Shown here piece after piece: positions 2 through 30,891 of a DNA stretch of 30,891 nucleotides (position 1 is its first letter; each line of letters begins with the position of its first letter). The stretch lies in IMG/VR virus record IMGVR_UViG_3300010354_006493, positions 1 through 30,891 of that record; one strand, 5' to 3'. A model generated the notes under the pieces. That model was given only the letters and a program-made list of their open reading frames with translations, was not told where the DNA came from and searched no databases. Made by a program: the position numbers and the translations under genes. The DNA comes from a virus.

Positions 2-184
2 GTTAAGAGTATTCTTTCTAATCTAAATACATATGGATTAGCATTTCCATTTGATCATGAATTATCATTTTGGTTAGAAATTGATTCTAGCAATGTTTAC
101 TGGTTGGAACCACCAATAGTTAAACAAGGTTCGCAATGTGGATTGTTTAAATCACTTTTACAGAATGGAGAAAATTTAGTATGA
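2..184 (+). CDS. C-terminal end of a probable glycosyltransferase (family 25-like), 5' truncated
   Basis: An open frame runs in from the left edge and stops at 182-184, giving about 60 residues. The readable end includes FPFDHELSFWLEI and WLEPPIVKQGSQ, which resemble the C-terminal end of family 25-type LPS glycosyltransferases in marine phages (a P-x-D segment, then an EPP-x-V-x-QGS segment). The stop overlaps the next start as ATGA, so the two genes are probably translationally coupled. Only the tail is visible, so the catalytic core cannot be examined. The family call rests on remembered resemblance and is tentative. That it is a real coding end is well supported by frame, overlap and the neighbouring sugar genes. 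Confidence 0.45.
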   Translation, partial: VKSILSNLNTYGLAFPFDHELSFWLEIDSSNVYWLEPPIVKQGSQCGLFKSLLQNGENLV

Positions 185-810
185 TTTATAATTTTAAATA
201 TTCAGATATGTCTAGGCACGAAGTCTCGACATACCTAGAGACAAAAAAATTCAAAAGGGTTTTAGATGTCGGGGCAGCAGCACATGGATGGAGTGCAAAA
301 TATCTTTCGCATTATATAGATATAAATCCATGGAATAACTCTAACGTGAAGGGTTTCCATGGCAATATTTCTTTGTATTCTACATGGAAACCAGTATTAG
401 AAGATGTTGCTATAAATGGTAAATATGATTTTGTTATATGTACGCATACTTTAGAGGATATTGCTTCTCCACAGTTTGTGTCTGAGATGATATGTGAGAT
501 TGGCAATGAAGGATATATTGCAGTTCCTTCAAAAAATGTAGAATTATCTAGAAATATAAATGGCCATTTTTATGGACATATACACCATAGATGGATTTTT
601 AATAAAGAATCTGATGATTTTGTAGCATATCCAAAATTAAATTTTATTGAATATATAGACTGGACTAAAACAATATCTAAATTTCACGGATTTAATGAAA
701 TTTGTTTTTTCTGGAAAGATTCATTTAAATTAAATGTGGTGAATAATGATTTTATGGGTCCAAATCCAGGTGCTGTGGTTTCTTATTTTAATGGATTGAA
801 TAATGAATAA
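181..810 (+). CDS. SAM-dependent methyltransferase, class I-like
   Basis: A 209-residue protein with a glycine-rich SAM-binding loop, LDVGAAAHGW, at residues 28-37. An acidic strand end follows (YIDINPW, 45-51), then a motif IV-like segment YDFVICTHTLEDI near 83-95. This is the layout of a Rossmann-fold methyltransferase. The substrate cannot be read from sequence. Its place between a glycosyltransferase tail and an FkbM methyltransferase suggests sugar O-methylation. It overlaps the upstream gene by 4 nt and the downstream gene by 8 nt, so it is part of a tightly packed operon. A conserved second half with many aromatic residues (HFYGHIHHRW) has no function I recognise. Confidence 0.6.
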   Translation: MIYNFKYSDMSRHEVSTYLETKKFKRVLDVGAAAHGWSAKYLSHYIDINPWNNSNVKGFHGNISLYSTWKPVLEDVAINGKYDFVICTHTLEDIASPQFVSEMICEIGNEGYIAVPSKNVELSRNINGHFYGHIHHRWIFNKESDDFVAYPKLNFIEYIDWTKTISKFHGFNEICFFWKDSFKLNVVNNDFMGPNPGAVVSYFNGLNNE

Positions 811-1405
811 AGTAATTAATTTTTTACTACAAAATAAAATACAAAGTGTTTTAGATATTGGAGCGAATTTAGGTGAATGGTCTTCGCATGTAAAACAAAA
901 TATTCCAAGTATTAAACTACATTCTATAGAAGCAAATCCAACTTGTGAAGAATTTTTAAAAAATAGAAATTTAAATTACTCTATTGCTTGTTTATCTGAC
1001 AGCATAAAAACAATAAAATTTTTTATAGATCCAAATAACAAAGTATCTACTGGTTGTTCTTACTATTTAGAAAATACTAACTTTTTTATTGATGAAATGT
1101 ATATTGAGTTACAAACTAAAACATTAGATTCCCTGATTGCAGACTCCTATGAATATATTAAACTAGATACTCAGGGATCTGAACTCGACATAATAAAAGG
1201 TGGCATGAATCTTATTTCTAGAGCAAAATATCTACAGTTAGAAACATCTCTAATAGAATACAATAAAAATTCTCCCTCAAAAGAAAAAGTTTTTATGTTT
1301 TTAGAGAAAATTAATTTTAAACCATTAGAGTTAGTTGAAACTCATCATATGAATGGTAAAATAATACAAGAAGATTTTGTATTTAAAAATACAATCTTTA
1401 ATTAA
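803..1405 (+). CDS. FkbM family methyltransferase
   Basis: A 200-residue protein, about the usual FkbM domain size. Motif I is DIGANLGEWS at residues 18-27, followed by the acidic strand SIEANP at 41-46. The family-typical C-terminal segment LDTQGSELDIIKGG lies at 121-134. FkbM proteins are SAM-dependent O-methyltransferases that often act on sugars or polyketides, and they are common in phage and bacterial surface-glycan clusters. It overlaps the previous gene by 8 nt and sits among nucleotide-sugar genes, so a role in capping or decorating a glycan is the natural inference. The actual acceptor is unknown. Base composition is very AT-rich, like its neighbours. Confidence 0.8.
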   Translation: MNKVINFLLQNKIQSVLDIGANLGEWSSHVKQNIPSIKLHSIEANPTCEEFLKNRNLNYSIACLSDSIKTIKFFIDPNNKVSTGCSYYLENTNFFIDEMYIELQTKTLDSLIADSYEYIKLDTQGSELDIIKGGMNLISRAKYLQLETSLIEYNKNSPSKEKVFMFLEKINFKPLELVETHHMNGKIIQEDFVFKNTIFN

Positions 1406-1447
1406 TTTGTGGTAGGGTTTGTTTATTGCGAGGTAATAAAAGTTATT

Positions 1448-2140
1448 ATGAATTTAATTATTGTTGTTTCTCACTTTAACGATGATCTTTCTTGGATTGT
1501 TAATCAAACTAAATATGATTATATTGTATATTCTAAAAATGAATCATCTGTTTTGCAATATAAAATTGAACCTTCTAAATTAAAAATAATGATAAACAGA
1601 GGAATGGAAGCTTCTGCTTACCTTAAATTTATCATAGATAATTATAATAATTTACCCGATCATGTTGCATTTTGCCATGGTCATGAATTTTCTTGGCATC
1701 AAGCACCAAATAAAACTATAATTGATCATTTAATTGGATATAATGGAGAAGAATATTATCCATTGAATGATCCTTATAACCGTAATTTACTTCATGATGA
1801 TTGTCTTGATCCGCGCGTATGGAGTGAAGTAAAACAATGCTGTATTGATATTAATTTAGAAATACCATCAAAACTTGAACATACTCATTCATCTCAATTT
1901 ATTGTGACTAAACAATGTATATTAAACAATCCTGTATATTTTTATTTAAATTGTTATAATTGGTTGATGAATCAAACTGTTATGTCTGACTACAATGCGG
2001 ATAGAGCATTTGAACAATTATGGTATTATTTATTGACAGGTAAAAATATAGAACCTAGATGGTGTGGTTATGTGCCATCTATAGGAAATTGTGATTTGAC
2101 AAAAATAGAAAAAAGACGCATATCTGGGACATACTATTAA
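1448..2140 (+). CDS. DUF3431-like protein
   Basis: The frame is open from a GTG at 1409, but the ATG at 1448 is the better start. It places the conserved beginning (MNLIIVVSHFNDDLSWI) at the N-terminus and has GAGGT about 13 nt upstream. The resulting protein is 230 residues. It has the DUF3431 pattern: an N/D-DLSW segment, YDYIVYSK, INRGMEASAYLKFI, then a DNLP-like stretch and CHGHEFSWHQ. DUF3431 proteins occur in fungi, bacteria and phages near glycan genes, and no reaction is established to my knowledge. The position inside the sugar cassette suggests a glycosyltransferase-associated role. This is an inference from context. Confidence 0.6.
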   Translation: MNLIIVVSHFNDDLSWIVNQTKYDYIVYSKNESSVLQYKIEPSKLKIMINRGMEASAYLKFIIDNYNNLPDHVAFCHGHEFSWHQAPNKTIIDHLIGYNGEEYYPLNDPYNRNLLHDDCLDPRVWSEVKQCCIDINLEIPSKLEHTHSSQFIVTKQCILNNPVYFYLNCYNWLMNQTVMSDYNADRAFEQLWYYLLTGKNIEPRWCGYVPSIGNCDLTKIEKRRISGTYY

Positions 2141-2153
2141 TTGGTGATAAATT

Positions 2154-2987
2154 ATGAAATATTCAATATTTGGTGGAACTGGTTTTATTGGTAATAACTT
2201 CATTAAAAAATATTCAACAGATTCTATTTTAATCAGAAAAGATTTAAACATACCAAAATCGAATAATGTTTTATACTTGATAAGCACAGTTGATAACTAC
2301 AATGTTCATACAAATCCATACATTGATATTGATACAAATCTAACTAAACTAATAGATGTGCTGGAAGGGTGTAAGCAAATAAACAATCCAGATTTTATTT
2401 TTAATTTTGTAAGTTCTTGGTTTGTTTATGGAAAAACAAATGAATATCCTGCAAAAGAAACTAGTTGGTGTAATCCAACTGGGTTTTATTCTATTACAAA
2501 ATATGCAGCAGAAAAGATGTTAATTTCGTATTGTCAAACTTTTAATATAAAGTATAGAATATTTAGATTGACAAACATAATTGGACTAGGTGATAAAAAA
2601 GTGTCAAAAAAGAAAAATGCACTCCAATATATGATTAACTGTTTAAAAAATAATGAAGAAGTAAATTTATATGATGGTGGTTCTCATGTTCGTGATTATA
2701 TGGATGTAGAAGATGCATGTACAGCAATCCATCTCTGTATGGAAAAAGCACCCATAAACGAAGTTATAAATATTAGTAATTCTGAACCATATTCAATTGG
2801 TGAATTAATTACTTATGCTGCAAATAAATTCAATTCAAAAAGCATTATTAATTCTATTAGTTCAACAGATTTTCATAAAATCGTTCAGATTGAAAATATG
2901 TGTTTAGATAATACTAAATTGTTGTCTTATGGATATGTTCCATCGATAACAGTAAAACAATCAATTGATAAAATATTGGAGATTTAA
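2154..2987 (+). CDS. NAD-dependent epimerase/dehydratase (extended SDR)
   Basis: A 277-residue protein with the dinucleotide-binding signature GGTGFIG at residues 7-13 and the active-site pair Tyr112/Lys116 in YSITK. Ser88 lies in the preceding catalytic strand (NFVSSWF). A downstream LYDGG-x-x-VRDYMDVED stretch is typical of nucleotide-sugar SDRs. It would act on an NDP-hexose as a 4-epimerase, reductase or dehydratase, but these cannot be told apart here. It ends in a TAATG overlap with the RmlB-like gene, so the two are probably translated together and act in sequence on the same sugar nucleotide. It is slightly short for a full epimerase (usually about 300-340 residues). Confidence 0.75.
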   Translation: MKYSIFGGTGFIGNNFIKKYSTDSILIRKDLNIPKSNNVLYLISTVDNYNVHTNPYIDIDTNLTKLIDVLEGCKQINNPDFIFNFVSSWFVYGKTNEYPAKETSWCNPTGFYSITKYAAEKMLISYCQTFNIKYRIFRLTNIIGLGDKKVSKKKNALQYMINCLKNNEEVNLYDGGSHVRDYMDVEDACTAIHLCMEKAPINEVINISNSEPYSIGELITYAANKFNSKSIINSISSTDFHKIVQIENMCLDNTKLLSYGYVPSITVKQSIDKILEI

Positions 2988-3880
2988 TGAAAATTGTAAC
3001 TACTGGTGGTCGTGGATTTATTGGAAGTCACTTTGTTGAATTGTGTTTACAGAATGGTCATATTGTTGTTGATATTGACTACATGGGGTACTGTTCAAAT
3101 AAACAACTTTCTTTTGATTCTAATCCAAATTATACACACATCAATCACGACATTGCATCAATCGAACACATACCTTTATGTGATGTAATAGTAAATTTTG
3201 CTGCCGAAACGCATGTGGATAATTCTATAAACGATACCCATCCATTTGTGCATAGTAACATAATGGGTGTCCATAATTTATTAGAAATAATAAAAGGAAA
3301 ACCAGAATATGAACGACCACTCTTTGTTCAGATAAGCACAGATGAAGTTTATGGTGATATTTTAGATGGAGAGTTTGTAGAAACTGATATATTAAAACCC
3401 AGCAATCCATATTCTGCAACAAAAGCAGCTGCTGAAATGCTAGTGATGAGTTATCATAGAACATATGGAATAAATTATATAATAACAAGAAGTTCAAATA
3501 ATTATGGAGAAAGGCAATATGAAGAAAAATTAATTCCTAAGTCCATTAATTATTTGAAATCTGGTAAGAAAATACCATTACAGGGAGATGGTTCTTATGT
3601 TAGGGATTGGATCTATGTTAAAGACAACGTAGAGGCAATTTATCATGTTATGACTGGCAAGTTCAAGAATGATATATTTAACATTGGTGCTAGAAATAGA
3701 TTAAAAAATATAGAAGTTGTTCGTACCGTCCTGGATTGGATGGATAAGGATGAAACTTCTATTACTTATGTTCCAAATCGATGGGGACAAGACTTGCGTT
3801 ATGCTTTGAGTATTGATAAAATACAATCTACTGGTTGGAGTCCAAAACATAATCAAGGAATATATAAATGGTTCAATTAA
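2987..3880 (+). CDS. dTDP-glucose 4,6-dehydratase-like protein (RmlB/RfbB type)
   Basis: A 297-residue extended SDR. NAD loop GGRGFIG is at 7-13, AAETHVDNSI at 72-81, catalytic STDEVYGD with Thr118-Asp119-Glu120, and Tyr142/Lys146 in YSATK. SSNNYGERQYEEKLIPKSI follows at 169-187, then QGDGSYVRDWIYV. These are hallmark segments of RmlB, which converts dTDP-glucose to dTDP-4-keto-6-deoxyglucose. It is 30-50 residues shorter than most bacterial RmlB proteins, with a lean N-terminal half. It overlaps the 3-dehydratase gene downstream by 13 nt. RmlB normally uses dTDP sugars, whereas the neighbour belongs to a family best known on CDP sugars, so the nucleotide is uncertain. Confidence 0.85.
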   Translation: MKIVTTGGRGFIGSHFVELCLQNGHIVVDIDYMGYCSNKQLSFDSNPNYTHINHDIASIEHIPLCDVIVNFAAETHVDNSINDTHPFVHSNIMGVHNLLEIIKGKPEYERPLFVQISTDEVYGDILDGEFVETDILKPSNPYSATKAAAEMLVMSYHRTYGINYIITRSSNNYGERQYEEKLIPKSINYLKSGKKIPLQGDGSYVRDWIYVKDNVEAIYHVMTGKFKNDIFNIGARNRLKNIEVVRTVLDWMDKDETSITYVPNRWGQDLRYALSIDKIQSTGWSPKHNQGIYKWFN

Positions 3881-5214
3881 CACATACCGATAGCATAACA
3901 CAAAAAATTAAAGAATTAGTTTCATTTAAAATTGCGCATTCAAAAAAAGAATGGATTCCTGGCAGGGATTATGTTCAGTATGCTGGGTCTTATTTTGATG
4001 ATGAAGAATTCATTGCTGGAATTGAATGTTTTCTTGATGGTTGGTTGGCGTTGGGAGAAAATGGAATTAGATTTGAAAGGCAGTTTAAAGAAAAATTAGG
4101 AAAGCAATATGGTGCTTTGACGAACAGTGGTTCTAGTGCAAATCTTTTAATGATATCTGCATTAAAGTCAAAGAATCTTTATAATTTTCAATCTGGAACA
4201 AAAATTATAACTCCTGCTGCGGGATTTCCAACCACAGTAAATCCCATAATTCAAAATGGTTTTACTCCTATATTTGTTGACATTGAACTTGATACTCTAA
4301 ATCTTAATTTAGATCAAGTAGAAGAAGCAGCTAAAAAAGGTGCTAGAGCTTTAGTCTTTGCACATGTATTGGGCAATCCACCAAATATGGATCGTCTTAT
4401 GGAGATTGTAAACAAATACAATCTTATTTTGTTAGAAGACTGCTGCGATGCTCTTGGCAGTAAATATGATGGTAAACTTCTAGGTTCATTTGGGCAGTTT
4501 GCATCTTGCTCATTCTATCCTGCCCATCATATTACAATGGGTGAGGGTGGATTTGTTGCATGTCAAACCGAAGAACAAGAAACTGTGATTAAAAGTCTTC
4601 GCGAATGGGGTCGTGGGTGTTACTGTTCTGGTAAGGGATCAGCATGTCTTCGTAATGGTATGTGTAAACGAAGATTCAGTGATTGGTTGCCCAGTTTTCC
4701 TGGAGTAATTTTTGATCACAAATATGTCTATGAAGAGATTGGGTATAATCTTAAACCATTGGATATGCAAGCAGCAATTGGTTTAGTGCAAGTTAAAAAA
4801 CTTGATAAGATCATTGAGATTCGAAAGAAAAATTTCAATAGACTATATAATATTTTTTCAAAATATGAGAATGTATTTCATTTGCCAAAAGCAACTGAGA
4901 AGTCTGATCCTTCTTGGTTTGCTTTTCCTCTAACAGTTCGTGATGGTGTTTATATGAGGCGTAATGATTTTACAATGTATCTTGAGGATTGTAAGATACA
5001 AACTAGGAATTATTTTGGAGGAAATATTTTACTTCAACCAGCATATGATAAAATATATCCTGGAGATGCAAAGAAAGATTTTCCTGTATCGACTAAAGTA
5101 ACTACTGATACATTTTTTCTTGGAACAAGTCCTGTGATTACTGATCAGCAATTGGACTATATAGAGTTGAAGGTTAATGAATATTTTTACAAAGCTGATA
5201 ATGTTAGGGTATAA
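3868..5214 (+). CDS. rfbH: RfbH/E1-like NDP-4-keto-6-deoxyhexose 3-dehydratase (DegT/DnrJ/EryC1 fold)
   Basis: A 448-residue PLP/PMP-fold protein. The lysine that carries PLP in sugar aminotransferases is replaced: SFYPAHHITMGEGG (205-218 region onward) has His220 at that position. This is the mark of the E1-type 3-dehydratases (RfbH/DdhC), which use PMP and a [2Fe-2S] cluster to remove the 3-hydroxyl. Cys193, Cys251, Cys253 and Cys260 or Cys266 lie where E1 has its cluster cysteines; the last spacing differs slightly from the usual CX57CX1CX7C. Known E1 needs a flavin/Fe-S reductase (E3), and none is visible here. It would make a 3-deoxy or 3,6-dideoxy sugar. Length fits the family (about 435-450). 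Confidence 0.88.
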   Translation: MVQLTHTDSITQKIKELVSFKIAHSKKEWIPGRDYVQYAGSYFDDEEFIAGIECFLDGWLALGENGIRFERQFKEKLGKQYGALTNSGSSANLLMISALKSKNLYNFQSGTKIITPAAGFPTTVNPIIQNGFTPIFVDIELDTLNLNLDQVEEAAKKGARALVFAHVLGNPPNMDRLMEIVNKYNLILLEDCCDALGSKYDGKLLGSFGQFASCSFYPAHHITMGEGGFVACQTEEQETVIKSLREWGRGCYCSGKGSACLRNGMCKRRFSDWLPSFPGVIFDHKYVYEEIGYNLKPLDMQAAIGLVQVKKLDKIIEIRKKNFNRLYNIFSKYENVFHLPKATEKSDPSWFAFPLTVRDGVYMRRNDFTMYLEDCKIQTRNYFGGNILLQPAYDKIYPGDAKKDFPVSTKVTTDTFFLGTSPVITDQQLDYIELKVNEYFYKADNVRV

Positions 5215-5217
5215 ATT

Positions 5218-6441
5218 ATGAAACCAAAAATTACACTATGTATGATCGTGAAGAATGAGTCCCATATAATTCATGAGTGTTTAAACTCTGTTTATAAGCA
5301 CATTGATTATTGGGTTGTGTCTGACACTGGTTCCACTGATGGAACACAAGATATAATCAAGAATTTCTTCAAGGAAAAAGGCATTCCTGGAGAACTACAT
5401 CAAGATGAGTGGAAGAACTTTGGTCATAACAGATCACTAGCACTTCGTCACTGTGATGATAAAGCAGAATATGCATGGATGATTGATGCAGATGATGTTT
5501 TTGAGGGAAATTTTACTCTTCCAGATAATACAACTATTGATGGATTTGTGATAAGAATGGGAAGACCTGAATTTTCTTGGTGGAGGACTCAGATTTTTAA
5601 AGTTGATTCAAAATGGGAATATAAAGGAGTTCTTCACGAATATCCATCATGCTCAAAAGAACAACCAATTCTTGCTAAATTAGAAGGTAATTACTTTTTA
5701 AATGCAAGAACTTTAGGAGCACGAAATGTCGGCATAAGTGCAGTTGAAAAATATACAAGAGATGCTGAAGTTTTAGAACAAGCATTGGTAGAAGAACCAA
5801 CAAATACAAGATATCAATTCTATCTTGGTCAGTCATATTTTGACTCTCAGCAGTGGGAGAAGGCAGAACAAGCATATATTAAAAGAGCACACATGGGTGG
5901 ATGGGGCGAAGAGGTTTACTACTCTCTCTATCGTGTTGCAATTTGTAGAGCAATGCTAGACAGACCATGGCCTGAAATTCAAGCATCATTCTTGGATGCA
6001 TATAATTCAAGACCAGTAAGAGCAGAACCCCTATATCATATTGCACAGGTACTAAGAACAAAATTCAATCAACCAGCAGCAGCATTTGTGTTTGCAAGAG
6101 CAGCAGCAGAGATTCCACTTCCCAAGGATGATATTCTGTTTGTCGCAAATGCAATCTATGATTATGCAATCCTGGATGAACTCGGAGCAACAGCATTTTA
6201 TGCTGCCAAACCAGAGATCGGTTATCTTGCGTGTAAGAAACTGCTTGAGGAAGGAAAGATTCCCAAGTCTGAGGTTGAAAGAGTTCAGCAAAACTTTAAT
6301 CAATATAAAAATGTTCTTGCTGAAATTGCAAAGCAACAACAGCAAGTTCAACAGCAAATTAATAAACTACAGCAAGAAAAAGTAAAAACCACCACAATTA
6401 AATTTCCTAAATATAAGGAGAAAAAGAAAGCTAGTCGCTAA
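5218..6441 (+). CDS. GT2 family glycosyltransferase with TPR-like and coiled-coil C-terminus
   Basis: A 407-residue protein. The N-terminal GT-A domain begins with ITLCMIVKNES, continues with VSDTGSTDGT (34-43), and has the metal/nucleotide-binding acidic cluster MIDADD (88-93). Residues about 180-290 look like TPR-type helices (YQFYLGQSYFDSQQWEKAEQAY). The last 60 residues are a glutamine-rich coiled coil (KQQQQVQQQINKLQQEK) followed by a lysine-rich tail. Similar GT2 proteins are common in T4-like marine phages. It begins 3 nt after the 3-dehydratase, so it probably transfers the sugar made upstream. The acceptor is unknown; the TPR part may grip a protein substrate. It is the last gene before the fibre island. 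Confidence 0.8.
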   Translation: MKPKITLCMIVKNESHIIHECLNSVYKHIDYWVVSDTGSTDGTQDIIKNFFKEKGIPGELHQDEWKNFGHNRSLALRHCDDKAEYAWMIDADDVFEGNFTLPDNTTIDGFVIRMGRPEFSWWRTQIFKVDSKWEYKGVLHEYPSCSKEQPILAKLEGNYFLNARTLGARNVGISAVEKYTRDAEVLEQALVEEPTNTRYQFYLGQSYFDSQQWEKAEQAYIKRAHMGGWGEEVYYSLYRVAICRAMLDRPWPEIQASFLDAYNSRPVRAEPLYHIAQVLRTKFNQPAAAFVFARAAAEIPLPKDDILFVANAIYDYAILDELGATAFYAAKPEIGYLACKKLLEEGKIPKSEVERVQQNFNQYKNVLAEIAKQQQQVQQQINKLQQEKVKTTTIKFPKYKEKKKASR

Positions 6442-6470
6442 CTTTTCTCTTTATTAGGAAATGAGAGTTA

Positions 6471-8582
6471 ATGGGATTTCCTGTTTCCCCCCAACCATTA
6501 CCAGGTGATACTTATTCGGCAGAAAATAGAGTATGGACTTATGACGGATATGGATGGCGCTTTCTAGGCGCATCTGGATCCGTCAATGTCACATTAACGG
6601 GAAATGTTAACTATACTATAGGAAATACTGCTCCATCTGGACCAAACAGTGGAGATAAGTGGTTTCATATCAATGATGCTGTAGAATACACTTACATAAA
6701 AGATTTTGATAATACAAGTCACTGGATAGAAATAGGAATGGGTTGTCCTTCTATCGGTGGCGAAACTGGTATTAATTTTCCAGTAACTGAATGTATTGGT
6801 GACATTTACGAATATGATTCTAGAATATGGATCTATAAAGGATATGGTTGGAAAATTGTATGCCAGAATACTGGTGATTCTGAGTTTACTTTTGGATTAA
6901 CTGCTCCTAGTAGTCCAAACCCAGGGCATAGATGGGTAGACAGTGCGACTGGATTGCTTTATACTTTTGTTAATGATTATGATCCACTGGGTCAGACTGG
7001 TCAATGGGTAGCATTTTCAAACGCATCTGAAATTATAGGTCCAGTTGGACCAACTGGTAGTACTGGACCAACTGGACCTGCTGGACCCGCTGGTTATACT
7101 GAAATATTTGGAACTCCAAATCAAATTGGTGTAAGTACTGAAGGTTCTGGTGTTACTTTATACATTCCATCTCTTTTTCAAGTAGATGCAATAACAGCAA
7201 ATGAAATAGCATCAACTCAATATTATGGAACTGATATGGAGTTGTATGGAACATTGGATCTTCCATATGGAAATTTAAATGTTCCTTCTGGGGTTGTAAC
7301 TGCTCCACATCACGAAGGAAATCTTCGTTTAGGTGGGACAGAAATTCAAGTAAGAAATGCATCTGGTGGTCAATTAGTAAAAGGAACTCCAGTTTATATT
7401 GTTGATGATATTCCTGCATCAACGCATGTTGATGTTGATGTATCGTATTGTGATACTTACTATAAGGTTCCTGCAATTGGATTAATTGCTGGAACAATAA
7501 ATAACAATCAGCTAGGTTATGCAATAACTAGCGGTTTATTAACTGGCATTAATACTTCTAATTTTGCAGTTAATGCAGATCTTTGGGTTGCACCACAATC
7601 GCAAATACTTGGTGTGACATATGGGTTAACTGTAATAGAACCAGTAGGTATTACAGAATATAAACACAAAATAGGTAAAATAGTCAAATCAGATCCAACT
7701 AATGGAATTATTCAAGTTTTTGGTGGTGATGCATTTGGAAAAAATATTCCAAATTATATTCCATTAGAAAAAGTAAAATCTTCAGAAAATGCCGCAGTTG
7801 ATAATGTGCTGTTTATCAGTCAGAGTACAACTAGTATTGGATCTGATCCATTCTTTGTTAAAACTCGCATCCCTGCTATGGAAATCAGGTTAAATACCTG
7901 GACTTATGTTGATCCTTCACCAACACCCGCGTGGAATAATGTTACATATTTTGGTGTTTTTCCAGAATCTATTCCACAATCCCATCGTTGGATTAAGCAC
8001 TTTCCCGTATGGCGTGAAATTTATGATCCAGAAACACTAGAAAGTTCTGAACAGGGATGGGTTCATGGAACATATGGCAGAGGATTGAGTGGTATTTTTG
8101 TTGGTGGTGCTGTTGGTAATACATTTTCGGTTGAGTTAAATTACTCATCACCTGGTATTACTGGATTAACTTTTGGTACTATAACAACTGCTTCTACTAG
8201 TGATAAAATACTTTTGCAAAGAAAACCATCTGATAAGATGGAACTTATTACTGTTGGTGATCTTCTTTCGACAGTGACTTTATCACCACCTACAAACATT
8301 CCAGGTGATATATCACCATATAAATTTGCATTCTTTGATTCGTCTGGAAACCAATATAGTTCTTCTGAGAATAATGTTAAATCACAAATTCTTCGTGACA
8401 ATATTAATACCTTAAATGGGTGTACTGGTGCTGTGGGTATCACTGGAACTACAGGAGAAATAGAAGTAATTAATTCGTGTCCAAATATTATTATTGGATT
8501 GCCAGATGATGTTTCTATAACAGGAAATTTAACAGTAAATGGATTTTATTTTGGATTTATAGATGGTGGAACCTTCGAATAA
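6471..8582 (+). CDS. Virion structural/fibre protein with collagen-like stretch and W/Y-rich modules
   Basis: A 703-residue protein. The N-terminus has a W/Y-rich module (GDTYSAENRVWTYDGYGW), repeated about 100 residues later (GDIYEYDSRIWIYKGYGW). Each copy is followed by a P-x-x-G-x-x-W...Y..D...W unit. A short collagen-like G-P-T-G run lies near residues 193-209. The centre is beta-rich and Gly/Thr/Ser-rich, and the protein ends NLTVNGFYFGFIDGGTFE, sharing the island's DGG-Y/F terminus. No signal peptide or membrane segment is seen. Composition and neighbours indicate a tail-fibre or baseplate-associated virion protein. I cannot assign a T4 gene number. It follows a 29-nt gap holding an AGGA ribosome-binding sequence. 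Confidence 0.75.
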   Translation: MGFPVSPQPLPGDTYSAENRVWTYDGYGWRFLGASGSVNVTLTGNVNYTIGNTAPSGPNSGDKWFHINDAVEYTYIKDFDNTSHWIEIGMGCPSIGGETGINFPVTECIGDIYEYDSRIWIYKGYGWKIVCQNTGDSEFTFGLTAPSSPNPGHRWVDSATGLLYTFVNDYDPLGQTGQWVAFSNASEIIGPVGPTGSTGPTGPAGPAGYTEIFGTPNQIGVSTEGSGVTLYIPSLFQVDAITANEIASTQYYGTDMELYGTLDLPYGNLNVPSGVVTAPHHEGNLRLGGTEIQVRNASGGQLVKGTPVYIVDDIPASTHVDVDVSYCDTYYKVPAIGLIAGTINNNQLGYAITSGLLTGINTSNFAVNADLWVAPQSQILGVTYGLTVIEPVGITEYKHKIGKIVKSDPTNGIIQVFGGDAFGKNIPNYIPLEKVKSSENAAVDNVLFISQSTTSIGSDPFFVKTRIPAMEIRLNTWTYVDPSPTPAWNNVTYFGVFPESIPQSHRWIKHFPVWREIYDPETLESSEQGWVHGTYGRGLSGIFVGGAVGNTFSVELNYSSPGITGLTFGTITTASTSDKILLQRKPSDKMELITVGDLLSTVTLSPPTNIPGDISPYKFAFFDSSGNQYSSSENNVKSQILRDNINTLNGCTGAVGITGTTGEIEVINSCPNIIIGLPDDVSITGNLTVNGFYFGFIDGGTFE

Positions 8583-25729: not shown

Positions 25730-26245
25730 ATGAATCTTAAAATATACAAACTTTATGAGGATGCAACATATCCAGAATATGGAACATCTCAAGCAGCGTG
25801 TTTTGATTTATGTGCTTATATTTCTTACCAGAAAATTATCAAAGCATATTCCAAAAACAACGGTCTTTATGAAATTATAGCAGCACAGGATCACGAAAAT
25901 AAAAATTACATTGATATTCCTGCTGAGTGGAGAGTGCTGATTCCTACTGGTTTGATACTTGATATTCCTCAAAATCATTCTGTAAGAGTTTATCCAAGAT
26001 CTGGTCTTTCTAGCAAAAAAGGATTGAATCTCATTAATTGTGTTGGTATAATTGATGCTGATTATGTTGAAGAAATATTCATTCCAGTCTACAATAATTC
26101 ACAGGAAAGACTCAGAATCTATAATGGTGAACGAATTGCTCAGGCAGAAATGATTTATAATCAACGACCAATACTTGAATACATATATGAAAGACCCGAG
26201 CAAAAAGGTGACAGAACTGGTGGATTTGGTTCCACAGGTGTATAA
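25730..26245 (+). CDS. dut: dUTP diphosphatase
   Basis: A 171-residue trimeric-type dUTPase. It hydrolyses dUTP to dUMP and pyrophosphate, keeping uracil out of phage DNA and supplying dTMP synthesis. All five motifs are visible: motif 1 AACFDLCAY (22-30), motif 2 PRSGLSSKKGL (89-99), motif 3 GIIDADYVEE with Asp109/Asp111 (106-115), motif 4 ERIAQAE (134-140), and the flexible arm DRTGGFGSTG (161-170). It is about 20 residues longer than the E. coli enzyme because of an insertion between motifs 1 and 2. It marks the switch from virion genes to nucleotide and replication genes. It overlaps the next gene as TAATG. Confidence 0.92.
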   Translation: MNLKIYKLYEDATYPEYGTSQAACFDLCAYISYQKIIKAYSKNNGLYEIIAAQDHENKNYIDIPAEWRVLIPTGLILDIPQNHSVRVYPRSGLSSKKGLNLINCVGIIDADYVEEIFIPVYNNSQERLRIYNGERIAQAEMIYNQRPILEYIYERPEQKGDRTGGFGSTGV

Positions 26246-27579
26246 TGAACAATAAAATTGAAGAGGTTATAAACTTCCTTAAAAAGTTTGCAGACAAGAA
26301 TGGTGTTCCTATTATTGGTGGTAAAAATTGGAACGACCTAAATGAAAAATATACAAAACAAGAAATCAAAGATGGATTAGCGGAATATATTTCACGCGAA
26401 TCTGTTTTATTTCCATTTCCAGAGATAAAACAAAAAGATGTTGAAAAGAAGTTCAGAGAACTTCGTTGCACTCCATATACTGAATTTATCATGACAGATC
26501 CTGGTGTTGTCACTGAAAAATATAACGATTACAAATATCCATTTTCTACTTGTGGTAATTTTGTAATTACACATGGACATTATCACAATGATATTAGTAA
26601 CTATTTTCAGCAAAGAAATCGTTATGATTGTGGATCACATGGATTTGTTTCACCAAATGAATATTGGTACTCGCCTGATCTATTGCAAAGAATGAACTGG
26701 ACATTTTGGAGAATGGAAGACCGAGGAATCAATCATGACAAAATTCATTCATCTTTTAGACTGGGTGCTTATGTTGCTACACAATTTAAACCACATGTAG
26801 CAAAAACAGTTTTTGATTATGTTATGAATAAAACACAATCAACTGCAAAAACAATATTAGATTTTAGCATGGGATGGGGAGATAGACTTGCAGGATTCTA
26901 CGCATCTTCTGCTATGAGTTATATGGGAACAGATCCAAATGCTAATGTGTTTAGAGTTTATAAAGAACAATGTATTGCATACGAGATGTTGATTAGTGGA
27001 GAAAAACCACTGATTAAAGAATTTCAGATAAAAGTTAAAGATAATATCTTTGATGCATTTAGATGCATTGGTGCATCTGGCAAAGAAGTAGTTGCATATA
27101 ATGCTCCTGCTGAAGATATACTTCACATTATAAAACAAAATCGTTATGATTGTATTTTTACTTCTCCTCCTTACTTTGCAACAGAACTATATGATGAAGG
27201 TGGAGATGATTGGAAGCAGTCGTGGTTTAGATATTCACAATATGATAATTGGTGGGATAAATTTTACAAACCAGTAATGACTGCTTGCTTTGAATCACTT
27301 TCAGATAATGGAATCATGATGATAAACATCATGGATCCTAGTGTTAATCGAAAAAGATATAAAACATGCGATCAAATGGTAGATTTAATTAAGGATCTTG
27401 GTGGTAAGTTTGACGGTCAGGTTGGAATGAGAATTATGCAACGACCAAAAAACATCAAATCAGACGATCTAAAGAAGCACTTGTCTACAACATATATTGA
27501 AAACATTTGGTGTTTTTCTAAAAAAGGATTTGATCTTTCTCAAAAACCTGCTACACTTGAAACAATATTTGGAGAATAA
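26245..27579 (+). CDS. Amino-methyltransferase with SPPY motif, probably DNA N4-cytosine/N6-adenine type
   Basis: A 444-residue protein. The first 200 residues carry no recognised domain. The SAM-binding region is LDFSMGWGDRLAG (205-217), followed by a MGTDPN strand end (227-232). The catalytic motif TSPPYF is at 306-311, the S-P-P-Y form more usual in N4-cytosine enzymes. It ends with IENIWCFSKK, as in type II DNA methylases. No restriction endonuclease partner is present, so an orphan enzyme that protects phage DNA is likely. The location next to dUTPase and a DUF1599 protein fits nucleotide or DNA modification. The motif I form GWGDR is unusual; an RNA or other substrate cannot be excluded. 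Confidence 0.75.
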   Translation: MNNKIEEVINFLKKFADKNGVPIIGGKNWNDLNEKYTKQEIKDGLAEYISRESVLFPFPEIKQKDVEKKFRELRCTPYTEFIMTDPGVVTEKYNDYKYPFSTCGNFVITHGHYHNDISNYFQQRNRYDCGSHGFVSPNEYWYSPDLLQRMNWTFWRMEDRGINHDKIHSSFRLGAYVATQFKPHVAKTVFDYVMNKTQSTAKTILDFSMGWGDRLAGFYASSAMSYMGTDPNANVFRVYKEQCIAYEMLISGEKPLIKEFQIKVKDNIFDAFRCIGASGKEVVAYNAPAEDILHIIKQNRYDCIFTSPPYFATELYDEGGDDWKQSWFRYSQYDNWWDKFYKPVMTACFESLSDNGIMMINIMDPSVNRKRYKTCDQMVDLIKDLGGKFDGQVGMRIMQRPKNIKSDDLKKHLSTTYIENIWCFSKKGFDLSQKPATLETIFGE

Positions 27580-27580
27580 A

Positions 27581-27892
27581 ATGACCCGTGAAGAACTTTT
27601 TAAAATGCATGAAGACATGTCTAGATATGCTCTTGATTTGATGAAAAAGAAAAATGCAGACTATTCTGGAAGTGATGGTGTAAATCCATTTGCAAATTTT
27701 AAAAGAGCAGAAGCACTTGGTATATGTACAACAGAGCAAGCATTTCTTGTACGAATGACAGATAAAATGTCTCGTCTTTCTTCTTTCTCTGCAAAAGGAA
27801 AACTAGTTGTTGAAGATGAAAGTGTTTACGACACATTGATTGATATGATTAATTATTCTGTTTTGCTTGCTGCTTATCTTAAATCAAAATGA
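27581..27892 (+). CDS. DUF1599-like (nucleotide modification-associated domain 1) protein
   Basis: The start at 27581 is chosen because GGAG lies 6 nt upstream (27571-27574) and the frame further upstream only repeats the end of the methyltransferase gene. The product is 103 residues, all alpha-helical in appearance. KKKNADYSGSDGVNPFANF (about 22-41) is followed by LVRMTDKMSRLSSF and ESVYDTLIDMINYSVLLAAY. This is the DUF1599 pattern, related to MazG-type nucleotide-binding helices with E/D-rich ends. The family was linked in the literature to phage base-modification systems. Here it lies between the methyltransferase and a DUF6065-like gene, overlapping the latter by 4 nt. The substrate is unknown. 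Confidence 0.7.
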   Translation: MTREELFKMHEDMSRYALDLMKKKNADYSGSDGVNPFANFKRAEALGICTTEQAFLVRMTDKMSRLSSFSAKGKLVVEDESVYDTLIDMINYSVLLAAYLKSK

Positions 27893-28662
27893 AAATTACA
27901 AAATATAATATATCAAATTCACTTGATATTGAAGTACCAAATAAGAAACGCAAGTGGATGGATGATACGCATAATGCTTTTGCTTATCGTTGTCTTCCCT
28001 TAACCGTAGCAAATGGATTTGGATGGACAGTGATTAATCCATACAAATTTGTTGTCATGTGGAATGGTGGTAGAGAAGTAAAAGATGTACAAGTTCATGT
28101 CACTAATCAGAAGAGTAAATTAATTGTACAATCACACTTTGGATCTGGTGTTGTTACATTTAATCTTGGATTTCTGATACAGACAGAATCAAAGCATAAT
28201 TTATATGTGAAAGGTCCAGCAAACAATCCAAAAAGAGGAATAAGTCCACTTGAAGGTGTTGTTGAAACCGATTGGTTGCCATTTACATTTACTATGAATT
28301 GGAAAATAACTGAAGAAAATTATCCAATTATATTTGATGAAGGTGAACCAATCTGTACATTCTTTCCATTTGAAAGAGGATATCTGGAACAATGGCAACC
28401 AGAAATTCAAGAACTAAAAGATAATCCTGAACTCAATAAAAAGTTTACCGAATGGTCTGAGTCAAGAAAAGTTTATAATTCAACTCTCGCTACAAATGGG
28501 AATAAAGGAGAACGAGATTATCTTCGTGGGCAATATAAAAATGGTGAAAAGTTTGATGACCATCAAAGTTTTATAAAAGCAAATGACTTTACAAAGGTCG
28601 ATCCTCCTGTTATAATAGAACCCCCGTGCTATGATAACTGTTGTCTGGAAAATGAACAATGA
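27889..28662 (+). CDS. DUF6065-like protein
   Basis: A 257-residue protein with KKRKWMDDTHNAFAYRCLPL (19-38), then TVANGFGWTVINPYKFVVMW and a later FDEGEPICTFFPFERGYLEQ (149-168). These segments match my memory of the DUF6065 family in marine phages and bacteria; no function is established that I know of. The central part is beta-rich. The C-terminal 60 residues are charged and end in a cysteine cluster (PPCYDNCCLENEQ), which might bind metal. It overlaps both neighbours by 4 nt (ATGA), so it is translated together with the DUF1599-like protein and the polymerase, suggesting a role in nucleotide supply or replication. Confidence 0.55.
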   Translation: MKITKYNISNSLDIEVPNKKRKWMDDTHNAFAYRCLPLTVANGFGWTVINPYKFVVMWNGGREVKDVQVHVTNQKSKLIVQSHFGSGVVTFNLGFLIQTESKHNLYVKGPANNPKRGISPLEGVVETDWLPFTFTMNWKITEENYPIIFDEGEPICTFFPFERGYLEQWQPEIQELKDNPELNKKFTEWSESRKVYNSTLATNGNKGERDYLRGQYKNGEKFDDHQSFIKANDFTKVDPPVIIEPPCYDNCCLENEQ

Positions 28663-30143
28663 AATTTTACACAAATGTTTTTTATGATTTTCAGTCTATG
28701 CTTTATACTGAAATTCAACCAGATGGGTCACGAAAATATCTGTCACAAGAATTTACACCATCTGTATATTTGCCATCAAAAACAAAGACAGATTATAAAT
28801 CAATCACTGGTGAATATCTTGCAGAGATGAAATTTGACTCTTATGATTCCTACAAGGAATTCATAAAGAGTTATTCTGATGTCAAGAACTTTGATATTCA
28901 TGGCGATATTCAATCAGAATATCAATTCATTCATCAAAAATATGGCAGTGATCTTTCCTATGACTTCTCGAAGATCGATATCATGTACATCGACATTGAG
29001 ACACAATCCGAAGCAGGATGGCCTCAAATTGAGAACCCAGAGGAAAAGATCAATGTCATAACTGTTTCTTCTACACGCACTGGAAAAGCAACATTCTGTC
29101 TTGGTAAGTTTAAGACAAACCAGGATGTGCGAGTATTTGAGTTCACTGATGAAGAAGAACTCCTCAAGACATTTGTGGAATACTTTGCAGCAAATTATCC
29201 CGATGTTGTCTCTGGGTGGAACATTCGGTTCTTTGACTTTCCGTATCTTATCAATCGAATCAAGAAACTATTTGGATTTAAGTTTGCCAAGAAGTTATCT
29301 CCGTGGAACAAGATCAAGGATCGCTATATCACTCGACACACGGGCAAGGAAGAAATTTGTTATGATCTAGTCGGCATAGCAATGCTCGACTACTACGAGG
29401 TTTATCAGACATTTACATATGTCAATCAAGAATCATATGCGTTAAATCATATTGCATATGTTGAACTTGGTGAGCGTAAACTTTCTTATTCTGAATATGA
29501 TAACATCACTGAGTTCTATCGCAAAGATTTTCAGAAGTTTGTTGAGTATAACATTCGAGATGTTGAACTTGTACAGAAACTGGAAGAGAAACTTAAACTA
29601 ATTGAACTGGCAATTGCTCTTGCATATTCAGCAGGAGTAAACTTCAGTGATGTATTCTCACAGGTACGAACATGGGATGTTATTATCTACAAGTATCTTG
29701 ATGATCGTGGTATTGTGATTCCTCCTAAGCGCAAAGGTAGAAAGGATGAACAATATGCTGGTGCTTATGTCAAGGAACCAGTTCCAGGAAAATACAACTG
29801 GGTGATGAGTTTTGACTTGAATTCTCTATACCCACATCTTATCATGCAATACAATATCTCACCCGAGACATTGACAGAAGATGGTCTTCGTGGTGTTGTT
29901 TCACCAGAAGGAATTTTGAAAGCAGGAGTTGTGTCTATGACGCAACTTGAACACAATAAGAAAAAGAATCTATCTACTGCTGCGAATGGGACTACCTATC
30001 GTAAAGATGTTCGTGGATTCCTTCCTGAACTTATGGATAAGATGTATAAAGATCGTAAAATGTTCAAGAAGAAAATGATTGAGTCAGAAAAACATCTTGA
30101 GCAAATCAACGCGGAAATGAAACGTAGGGGATTGACAAAGTAA
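28659..30143 (+). CDS. 43: DNA polymerase gp43, N-terminal half only (family B; ends before fingers and motif C)
   Basis: A 494-residue protein. It has the proofreading exonuclease: Exo I YIDIE with Asp112/Glu114 (the same numbers as T4 gp43), Exo II NIRFFDFPYL with Asp193, and Exo III YNIRD with Asp301. The YAGAYV segment (366-371) and palm motif A SFDLNSLYP with Asp386 follow, continuing as NISPETLTEDG. The frame stops at TAA 30141-30143 after the helix EQINAEMKRRGLTK. Motif B (K-x-x-x-N-x-x-YG), motif C (DTD) and the thumb are absent; full T4-like enzymes are about 800-900 residues. This therefore looks like gp43A of a split polymerase. Whether it works depends on a separate gp43B, not in this window. 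Confidence 0.9.
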   Translation: MKFYTNVFYDFQSMLYTEIQPDGSRKYLSQEFTPSVYLPSKTKTDYKSITGEYLAEMKFDSYDSYKEFIKSYSDVKNFDIHGDIQSEYQFIHQKYGSDLSYDFSKIDIMYIDIETQSEAGWPQIENPEEKINVITVSSTRTGKATFCLGKFKTNQDVRVFEFTDEEELLKTFVEYFAANYPDVVSGWNIRFFDFPYLINRIKKLFGFKFAKKLSPWNKIKDRYITRHTGKEEICYDLVGIAMLDYYEVYQTFTYVNQESYALNHIAYVELGERKLSYSEYDNITEFYRKDFQKFVEYNIRDVELVQKLEEKLKLIELAIALAYSAGVNFSDVFSQVRTWDVIIYKYLDDRGIVIPPKRKGRKDEQYAGAYVKEPVPGKYNWVMSFDLNSLYPHLIMQYNISPETLTEDGLRGVVSPEGILKAGVVSMTQLEHNKKKNLSTAANGTTYRKDVRGFLPELMDKMYKDRKMFKKKMIESEKHLEQINAEMKRRGLTK

Positions 30144-30159
30144 AGATATATGGTATAAT
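30132..30159 (+). promoter_or_regulatory. Near-consensus sigma70 promoter with extended -10
   Basis: TTGACA at 30132-30137 (inside the last codons of the polymerase fragment) and TATAAT at 30154-30159 are both perfect, spaced by 16 nt. TGG precedes TATAAT, giving the extended -10 form. Expected transcription start is about 30165-30167, on or next to the ATG of the RNA methyltransferase at 30166. The promoter would drive the methyltransferase, basic peptide and tRNA early in infection by unmodified host polymerase. No comparably strong promoter was found elsewhere in the window. Confidence 0.85.
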
Positions 30160-30165
30160 GCGCGT

Positions 30166-30708
30166 ATGGAAAGCAGGAATGTAATTGACCACTACCACTA
30201 CTGGAAGCATGAAGCGATCATCGCAGACCTTGATGCAAAGCGGAACAATTTTACCGTTGTTTGTAGCAATCTGTATAACGACTTCAATATTGCTACGGTT
30301 ATTCGTAATGCGAATGCGTTCCTTGCTAAGAAGGTAGTGCTATATGGTGCAAAGCAGTACGACCGTCGTGGTACTGTTGGGACGCATCATTACACTCACT
30401 TCAAGCATACCAAGTCTCTATCTGAACTTGATGATGAGATCAAGTCTATTAGAGATACTAATACCGATGTTAGAGTCATTGGTATTGATAACATTCCTGG
30501 GGCAAGTCCAATCAATTCTTATATGTGGGATTCAACTATTCATTATATTCTTGTTTTTGGACAAGAACAGGTTGGACTGCCCCAGGAAATGCTTGACATC
30601 TGCGACGACATACTGTATATTAAGCAGTATGGATCTGTTCGTTCATTAAATGTAGGCACTGCAAGTGGAATTGCAATGTATGCCCTTGTATCAAACACAA
30701 TAGGATAA
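30166..30708 (+). CDS. SpoU/TrmH family RNA 2'-O-methyltransferase
   Basis: A 180-residue, single-domain SPOUT protein. Motif 1 is NDFNIATVIRNANAF (38-52) with Arg47, motif 2 LVFGQEQVGLP (129-139), and motif 3 IKQYGSVRSLNVGTASGIAMY (152-172, knotted SAM site). Such enzymes methylate ribose 2'-O in tRNA or rRNA. The middle (RRGTVGTHHYTHF, GIDNIPGASP) recalls chromosomal TrmH-like proteins of some bacteria. There is no N-terminal RNA-binding domain, as in TrmL-sized enzymes. It sits directly behind the truncated polymerase under its own strong promoter, and a tRNA-Gln gene follows 98 nt later. Acting on that tRNA or on host tRNA is a reasonable inference; the target nucleotide is unknown. Confidence 0.88.
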   Translation: MESRNVIDHYHYWKHEAIIADLDAKRNNFTVVCSNLYNDFNIATVIRNANAFLAKKVVLYGAKQYDRRGTVGTHHYTHFKHTKSLSELDDEIKSIRDTNTDVRVIGIDNIPGASPINSYMWDSTIHYILVFGQEQVGLPQEMLDICDDILYIKQYGSVRSLNVGTASGIAMYALVSNTIG

Positions 30709-30711
30709 ACT

Positions 30712-30801
30712 ATGAGTAGAAAAACACCACACCGTAAATTTGGTCGTCGTAGAAAGTTAGGTTCAAAGAAGCGACGAGCGCGTAAGTTAGCTAGAGGATG
30801 A
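30712..30801 (+). CDS. 29-residue extremely basic peptide
   Basis: A short frame starting at ATG 30712, 3 nt after the methyltransferase stop, ends 5 nt before the tRNA. It encodes 29 residues, 15 of them Lys or Arg, with a KFGRRRKLGSKKRRARKLAR core. There is no acidic residue at all. Such composition suits RNA or DNA binding, like tiny ribosomal proteins or nucleic-acid chaperones, but I do not recognise a family. Its setting between an RNA methyltransferase and a tRNA hints at an RNA-related role. Codon choice (CGT, AGA, AAG mixed) is unremarkable. It is too short to exclude a chance frame, but the tight spacing supports it. Confidence 0.5.
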   Translation: MSRKTPHRKFGRRRKLGSKKRRARKLARG

Positions 30802-30806
30802 GATGT

Positions 30807-30877
30807 TACCCCGTGGTGAAACGGTATCACAGGAGACTTTGGATCTCTTTTTCCTAGTTCGAATCTAGGCGGGGTAG
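30807..30877 (+). tRNA. tRNA-Gln (UUG)
   Basis: A 71-nt cloverleaf. The acceptor is TACCCCG (30807-30813) with CGGGGTA (30870-30876) and discriminator G. D stem GTGA/TCAC; anticodon stem GGAGA/TCTCT (one G-T pair) with loop CTTTGGA, anticodon TTG at 30839-30841. T stem CCTAG/CTAGG around TTCGAAT. The CCA end is not encoded. It reads CAA and CAG. It is the last recognised element before the window ends and is probably transcribed from the promoter at 30132. Confidence 0.93.
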
Positions 30878-30891
30878 TTAAGGGATTGTGG

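Follow-up and report, generated by a model that had tools for sequence, protein, structure and literature searches.

How can a virus carry a gene for a T4-like replicative DNA polymerase that stops before half of the catalytic motifs and runs at once into a promoter, an RNA methyltransferase gene and a tRNA gene? This question is raised by the IMG/VR record IMGVR_UViG_3300010354_006493, a stretch of 30,891 bp which we analysed whole and refer to as the window. Four features, a polymerase frame (gp43A), a methyltransferase gene, a gene for a basic peptide and a tRNA-Gln gene, follow one another on the + strand in its final 2.2 kb. We consider it very likely that the window breaks off within a gene 43 that is split by nature, in which two chains make one polymerase and the gap between them, at the tip of the fingers, is occupied by an island of tRNA and methyltransferase genes. 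A previous reading from the letters alone (the sequence-only reading) had described the same succession of polymerase frame, promoter, TrmH-like gene, basic peptide and tRNA, all of which we confirm in the sequence.

We begin with the half that the window contains. Pfam matches the exonuclease and PolB palm domains in gp43A, and PHROG matches it to DNA polymerase families at 1e-169 and 1e-151, with one matched family being 502 positions long and ending where gp43A ends. The protein matches the structures of RB69 and T4 gp43 as far as RB69 residue ~500. Motif A (DLNSLYP) is present and motifs B and C are absent, so that Pfam, PHROG and motif reading all agree with the earlier description of a frame that has the exonuclease and motif A and stops short of the rest. 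Alignment with unsplit polymerases places the cut at the fingers tip, between the two antiparallel helices: gp43A finishes in ...EMKRRGLTK and the second half, gp43B, as found in relatives, starts with ...LSNDELLKLKRQAE. The polymerases of Synechococcus phage ACG-2014f and of Aeromonas phage 25 break here too. When the structure of gp43A is predicted alone, the N-terminal and exonuclease part is confident and a long terminal fingers helix spans residues 454-489, with the palm segment 360-397 at a predicted local distance difference test score (pLDDT) of ~30; a poorly ordered palm of this kind would be expected if gp43B finishes the palm.

Now we consider whether a second half exists. Relatives of gp43A, the methyltransferase and gp43B were gathered from IMG/VR (their loci are numbered with an L below) and are mostly uncultured T4-like phages known from metagenomes. 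Both halves are present in 22 distinct loci of the clade, and also in ACG-2014f. In the relatives gp43B has an invariant K-x3-N-S-x-Y-G (motif B) and SDTDS (motif C), together with a conserved C-terminus, ...LESLF; a frame with the K-x-x-x-N-x-x-YG and DTD motifs, which the sequence-only reading had set as its test, is thus found beyond the insert in relatives, though not in the window record. In 35 distinct related sequences from many metagenomes gp43A stops at the window's position, give or take a few residues, so the TAA is not an assembly error and the suspected join at position 30141 is not borne out. The ratio of non-synonymous to synonymous substitution rates (dN/dS) is ~0.04-0.17 on gp43A and gp43B, indicating strong purifying selection on both, and no second DNA_pol_B gene was found in the records holding both halves. 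Taken together, the 22 loci with gp43B, the shared stop, the selection and the lack of a second polymerase gene in those records exclude an assembly join as the source of the split, and they support the suggestion of a two-subunit polymerase with an unusual interrupter.

Two loci in this sample depart from the common layout. In L029 an apparently unsplit gp43 (3618-6149) was considered as a member of the clade and rejected, with residues 1-260 being 95-99% identical to L005 and the rest ~60%; it looks like a recombinant or an assembly chimera. In L042 (6205-10939) the polymerase is in three pieces: a 423-residue open reading frame (ORF) is followed by a Mom-like gene (PF25680) and a 103-residue ORF with the first fingers helix, after which come a tRNA-Leu gene, a weakly matching HNH ORF, an 82-residue ORF and then gp43B. 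L157 and L158 have a Mom gene 90% identical to that of L042, ~2.7 kb upstream of gp43, which is unsplit in both.

Table 1. Coordinates of the features of the window and of the frame-broken gp43B genes of some relatives (nt, nucleotides; aa, amino acids).
Feature	Position	Strand	Remarks
gp43A, N-terminal half of family-B replicative DNA polymerase, 494 aa	28659..30143	+	N-terminal domain, 3'-5' exonuclease, palm motif A, first fingers helix; TAA at 30141-30143
sigma70-type promoter, TTGACA-16-TATAAT	30132..30159	+	overlaps last codons and stop of gp43A; TTGACA 30132-30137, 16-nt spacer, TATAAT 30154-30159, 6 nt, ATG at 30166
SpoU/TrmH-fold (SPOUT) RNA 2'-O-methyltransferase, 180 aa	30166..30708	+	SpoU profile, motifs, predicted fold
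basic peptide MSRKTPHRKFGRRRKLGSKKRRARKLARG, 29 aa	30712..30801	+	just 3' of methyltransferase; purifying selection
tRNA-Gln(UUG)	30806..30878	+	anticodon TTG in DNA
GGGATTGTGG, apparent 5' start of next tRNA gene	30882..30891	+	cut by contig end; by comparison with relatives
gp43B with 5-nt insertion, L006	5888-7032
gp43B with 5-nt insertion, L037	5217-6361
gp43B with 5-nt insertion, L186	1521-2665
gp43B with 5-nt insertion, L201	181-1289

From this anatomy we infer that gp43A and a gp43B lying beyond the contig end are translated as two polypeptides which assemble into one polymerase, where the antiparallel fingers helices would be shared out, one to each chain, and the palm would be completed across both. 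Precedent comes from Aeromonas phage 25, where 43A and 43B co-purify and polymerise (PMC2988022). The gap at the fingers tip would hold an island with tRNA-Gln, tRNA-Leu(UAA), tRNA-Leu(CAA) and the SpoU/TrmH-type methyltransferase, an enzyme that most probably 2'-O-methylates the phage tRNAs of the island. The methyltransferase, and in some relatives gp43B as well, would be transcribed from a promoter of its own as a leaderless mRNA.

What, then, occupies the gap? Across the 22 two-half loci the insert ranges from 182 to 7984 nucleotides (nt). Every one of these inserts contains a tRNA gene (tRNA-Leu(UAA) in 20 of them) and 18 contain the methyltransferase, in keeping with the earlier description of an RNA-modification and tRNA module. 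The shortest inserts (the 182-nt form; L203, L204) contain just tRNA-Leu(UAA) and an ORF for a short peptide that runs into gp43B at its start. The window covers ~0.75 kb of its insert before the contig ends. In relatives tRNA-Leu(UAA) follows tRNA-Gln at the same spacing, and by this comparison the last ten bases, GGGATTGTGG, are the apparent start of the next tRNA gene; an exact search with the terminal bases had a sole match, L155 (= L016), which ends short of gp43B. The claim that the insert carries no nuclease holds for the part within the window and fails for the relatives, where 7 of the 22 inserts have an HNH or GIY-YIG homing endonuclease. With the tRNA constant, the methyltransferase frequent and nucleases in this minority, we regard the nucleases as sporadic passengers. 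The cassette moves between phages: in two pairs of loci (L012 vs L009 and L021 vs L090) synonymous differences are 0.08 and 0.17 in the methyltransferase and 0.76-1.40 in gp43A and gp43B, and a methyltransferase nearly alike at synonymous sites between diverged gp43 halves argues for exchange.

Several points weigh against this picture of a split gene with a tRNA and methyltransferase island. The window record ends before any gp43B, and its nearest relative with both halves, L005, is 82% identical in gp43A. The methyltransferase is missing from 4 of the 22 inserts. When it is present, its substrate may be of another kind: the enzyme reaches none of the NCBIfam equivalog cut-offs that we compared (score against cut-off in bits: RlmB 52.5/160, TrmH 43/227, TrmL 28/190.6), and with a fold equally like rRNA and tRNA enzymes, an rRNA target is possible.

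The methyltransferase matches the SpoU_methylase profile of Pfam, and SPOUT motifs 1-3, including the catalytic Arg, are invariant in 27 sequences of the enzyme. Its predicted model (pLDDT 84) matches the structures of AviRb, TrmH and RlmB with Z scores of 18-20, and TrmL structures as well. That the enzyme acts on host rRNA in the manner of RlmB or AviRb, modifying the ribosome instead of serving tRNA maturation, draws on RlmB having the best raw NCBIfam score and on AviRb being the best fold match at Z 20, tied with TrmH. We think this unlikely, though it is the strongest of the alternatives, because the gene is steadily linked to tRNA genes in two genomic contexts, it has no fused ribosome-binding domain, and its N-terminal helix is positioned as in TrmH. 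In both contexts sampled, the split gp43 loci and loci without gp43A that have up to 18 tRNAs, homologues of the enzyme lie among tRNA genes. The latter include L124, L125, L128 and L135, where 16-18 tRNA genes surround the same methyltransferase with no gp43A nearby; no DNA_pol_B was found in the 118-kb record of L124.

The identity of the tRNAs bears on the same question. The G18 targets of E. coli TrmH lie in class II tRNAs (Leu, Ser, Tyr) and in tRNA-Gln, which qualifies by being one nucleotide short between A14 and G18 (PMC11640301). In the 22 inserts 49 of the 59 tRNA genes are Leu, Gln, Tyr or Ser, a count that is suggestive only since the loci share ancestry, and the D-loop of the window's tRNA-Gln (AACGGTA) has the short A14-G18 spacing. 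The enzyme is thus like TrmH in fold, in its three SPOUT motifs and catalytic Arg, and in that the substrates of E. coli TrmH are the tRNA classes dominating the island; it differs in being just 180 residues long, without the C-terminal extension, and in scoring below every equivalog cut-off. The tRNA classes, the D-loop spacing and the linkage to tRNA genes together favour tRNA 2'-O-methylation, probably Gm18, as its activity.

The island also appears to bring its own expression signals. The -35 box of the window promoter is formed by Leu-Thr codons near the end of gp43A, which means that the promoter of the insert is built into the polymerase gene. Among 41 distinct sequences upstream of the methyltransferase, 27 have a TATAAT (at most one mismatch) exactly 6 nt 5' of the ATG, and just one of them has a Shine-Dalgarno-like motif. 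A scan of 190 ORFs in twelve loci gave 20 matches at a -10-to-ATG distance of 6, with other distances mostly at 1-6 and at most 11 matches; since the twelve loci are related, these matches are not independent. With the -10 box at this distance the transcript would start at the ATG itself, and so the methyltransferase mRNA is probably leaderless. In L012, L021, L026, L090, L115 and L121 gp43B has a similar promoter (~5-8 nt), and in other loci gp43B overlaps the preceding ORF. Boxes exactly 6 nt before an ATG were also seen for some gp43A genes and for other gene families, and leaderless expression may, judging by these signals, be common in these phages. As for the basic peptide, synonymous differences among its homologues are 0.47-0.98 and non-synonymous ones 0.07-0.26, a pattern that marks it as a real gene; apart from the window, a few related loci have it, among them L129, in which it comes after the methyltransferase but not within gp43. 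It had no match in Pfam, PHROGs or NCBIfam, and a small RNA-binding or ribosome-associated peptide is our guess.

Some relatives have a gp43B that is itself out of frame. One and the same 5-nt insertion breaks gp43B in L006/L086, L037/L199, L186 and L201, with ...GCA ATA GGT TAG GCA... where other loci have ...GCA ATA GGC AAC..., and it was present at none of the 97 other readable gp43B sites. An identical gene for a GIY-YIG protein lies directly upstream of gp43B in L006 and L186; the DNA of these two loci is near 100% identical from this gene to the insertion and ~70% identical just beyond, and in L201 the insertion persists beside what is left of the GIY-YIG gene, a short piece of its tail. 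Sequence comparison thus indicates that the insertion travels with the GIY-YIG gene. If ribosomes hopped +5 nt from GGU, gp43B would again read AIG-NQY. Downstream of the insertion the sequence is identical to that of the intact L005, or nearly so to that of L090, meaning that the insertion events are recent and that selection cannot yet tell recoding from damage. There is a known parallel at T4 gene 60: a homing endonuclease cut an essential gene in two there, and translation of the downstream part bypasses an insert, taking off at a Gly codon with UAG after it (PMC5009743; PMC3014915). Like T4 gene 39/60 with MobA, the present genes are an essential enzyme split beside a homing endonuclease, and the downstream half in L006 and L186 likewise has an out-of-frame insertion with a Gly codon directly followed by UAG. 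The T4 bypass, however, spans 50 nt and goes with an HNH enzyme, whereas the relatives here have 5 nt, a GIY-YIG enzyme and only candidate recoding.

One tentative reading, which we hold to be possible without being probable, joins these observations. The fingers tip would be a landing site for a mobile tRNA island that has its own methyltransferase and uses promoters in the end of gp43A, is exchanged by homing, and is retained by sitting inside an essential gene; in some members the GIY-YIG-linked insertion would be hopped (GGU-UA-GGC) or shifted, making this a second, independent endonuclease-plus-bypass cassette. Phage tRNAs can counter tRNA-cutting defences (PMC13096335), and resistance of this kind is one possible benefit of the island tRNAs. 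The T4 SegB/tRNA region is alike in that tRNA genes of a T4-like phage are associated with homing endonucleases which promote their spread (PMC2988022; PMC13096335), but the T4 cluster interrupts no essential gene, while the island of the window's clade lies inside the polymerase gene and most members lack an endonuclease. The minimal 182-nt insert, which has a single tRNA gene plus an ORF for a short peptide, uncouples the split as such from homing endonucleases, and the leaderless promoters and frame-broken gp43B of relatives bear on how essential phage genes survive invasion.

How often has the split arisen? In the gp43A tree all rows of the split clade fall together (15 of 15 and, in a later version, 20 of 20; support 100/100), and a quick gp43B tree again gives one group. 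ACG-2014f falls among unsplit cyanophages and phage 25 next to a T4 relative, so the simplest reading of the tree is apparently three independent splits at the same fingers-tip position. Three changes can also be read as one gain and two losses, with a split ancestral to the T4-like group and unsplit forms re-fused by deletion of the insert and tip residues, and the unsplit relatives of the clade do have a fingers tip shorter than that of split forms and T4. Nevertheless we find ancestry improbable, as the split forms sit in three well separated places among unsplit polymerases, with inserts that bear no relation to one another (a segD-like endonuclease, two small ORFs and a tRNA island). Three apparently independent breaks at one position make the fingers-tip hairpin a natural split point, which is useful for engineering split polymerases.

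Split gene 43 was previously described in Aeromonas phages 25 and 44RR as 43A-43B (Petrov et al. 2010, as cited by PMC2988022). The likeness to the window is close, with PolB cut at the fingers tip and a gp43A of 498 residues against 494, but in phage 25 the halves are parted by a seg-type homing endonuclease and in 44RR by an untranslated spacer, with no tRNA or methyltransferase, and gp43 of phage 25 is only distantly related to the window's and separate in the tree. The sequence-only reading had named these phages as precedent; the cut is the same, but the closest isolate with a split gp43 is ACG-2014f. This cyanophage has a Kyanoviridae-type polymerase annotated as two DNA polymerase coding sequences, the same cut and a near-identical gp43A end (EAEMKRRGVL), but its insert is two small ORFs without tRNA or methyltransferase, and it groups with an unsplit cyanophage in the tree. 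No tRNA-interrupted gp43 was found in the literature searched, which largely excludes subscription papers. While a split T4-like polymerase is already known, the clade-wide tRNA and methyltransferase interrupter with its single-tRNA minimal form appears to be new, and it shows that a core replication enzyme can stay as two chains throughout a clade with its gap housing tRNA genes and a tRNA-type modification enzyme.

The break could in principle be spliced, by a group I intron or a split intein, to give a single-chain polymerase, and examples of both exist: gene 43 of Aeromonas phage 25 and of phage JSE contains group I introns (PMC2993671), and PolB of phage MIJ3 contains a split intein (PMC6892783). 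We judge this very unlikely. Only tRNA families of Rfam match the window and ten related loci, with no group I intron; gp43A and gp43B reach just ~10-25 residues beyond their shared homology, which is too short for intein halves; some inserts are hardly more than one tRNA gene; and gp43B is provided with a start of its own and, at some loci, with a promoter too. Least credible of all is an assembly chimera or pseudogene, which the contig end inside the insert and the chimeric look of L029 might suggest, given that one stop recurs across distinct sequences and two-half loci under strong purifying selection.

A few observations concern the surroundings of the split gene. A DUF6065 gene lies immediately 5' of gp43A in the window (27889-28662), and a diverged copy stands between gp43A and the methyltransferase in L005 (9479-10327), L006 and L090. 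Rhodococcus phages encode methyltransferases 31-32% identical to the window's; these and the leaderless promoters prompted the idea of an actinobacterial host, which we set aside, as no WhiB was found in ten related records. Further upstream, a gene of the DNA N6/N4 methylase type (26245-27579) has as neighbours the genes for a dUTPase (25730-26245) and for a DUF1599 'nucleotide modification associated' protein (27497-27892); the three possibly form a DNA-modification cluster.

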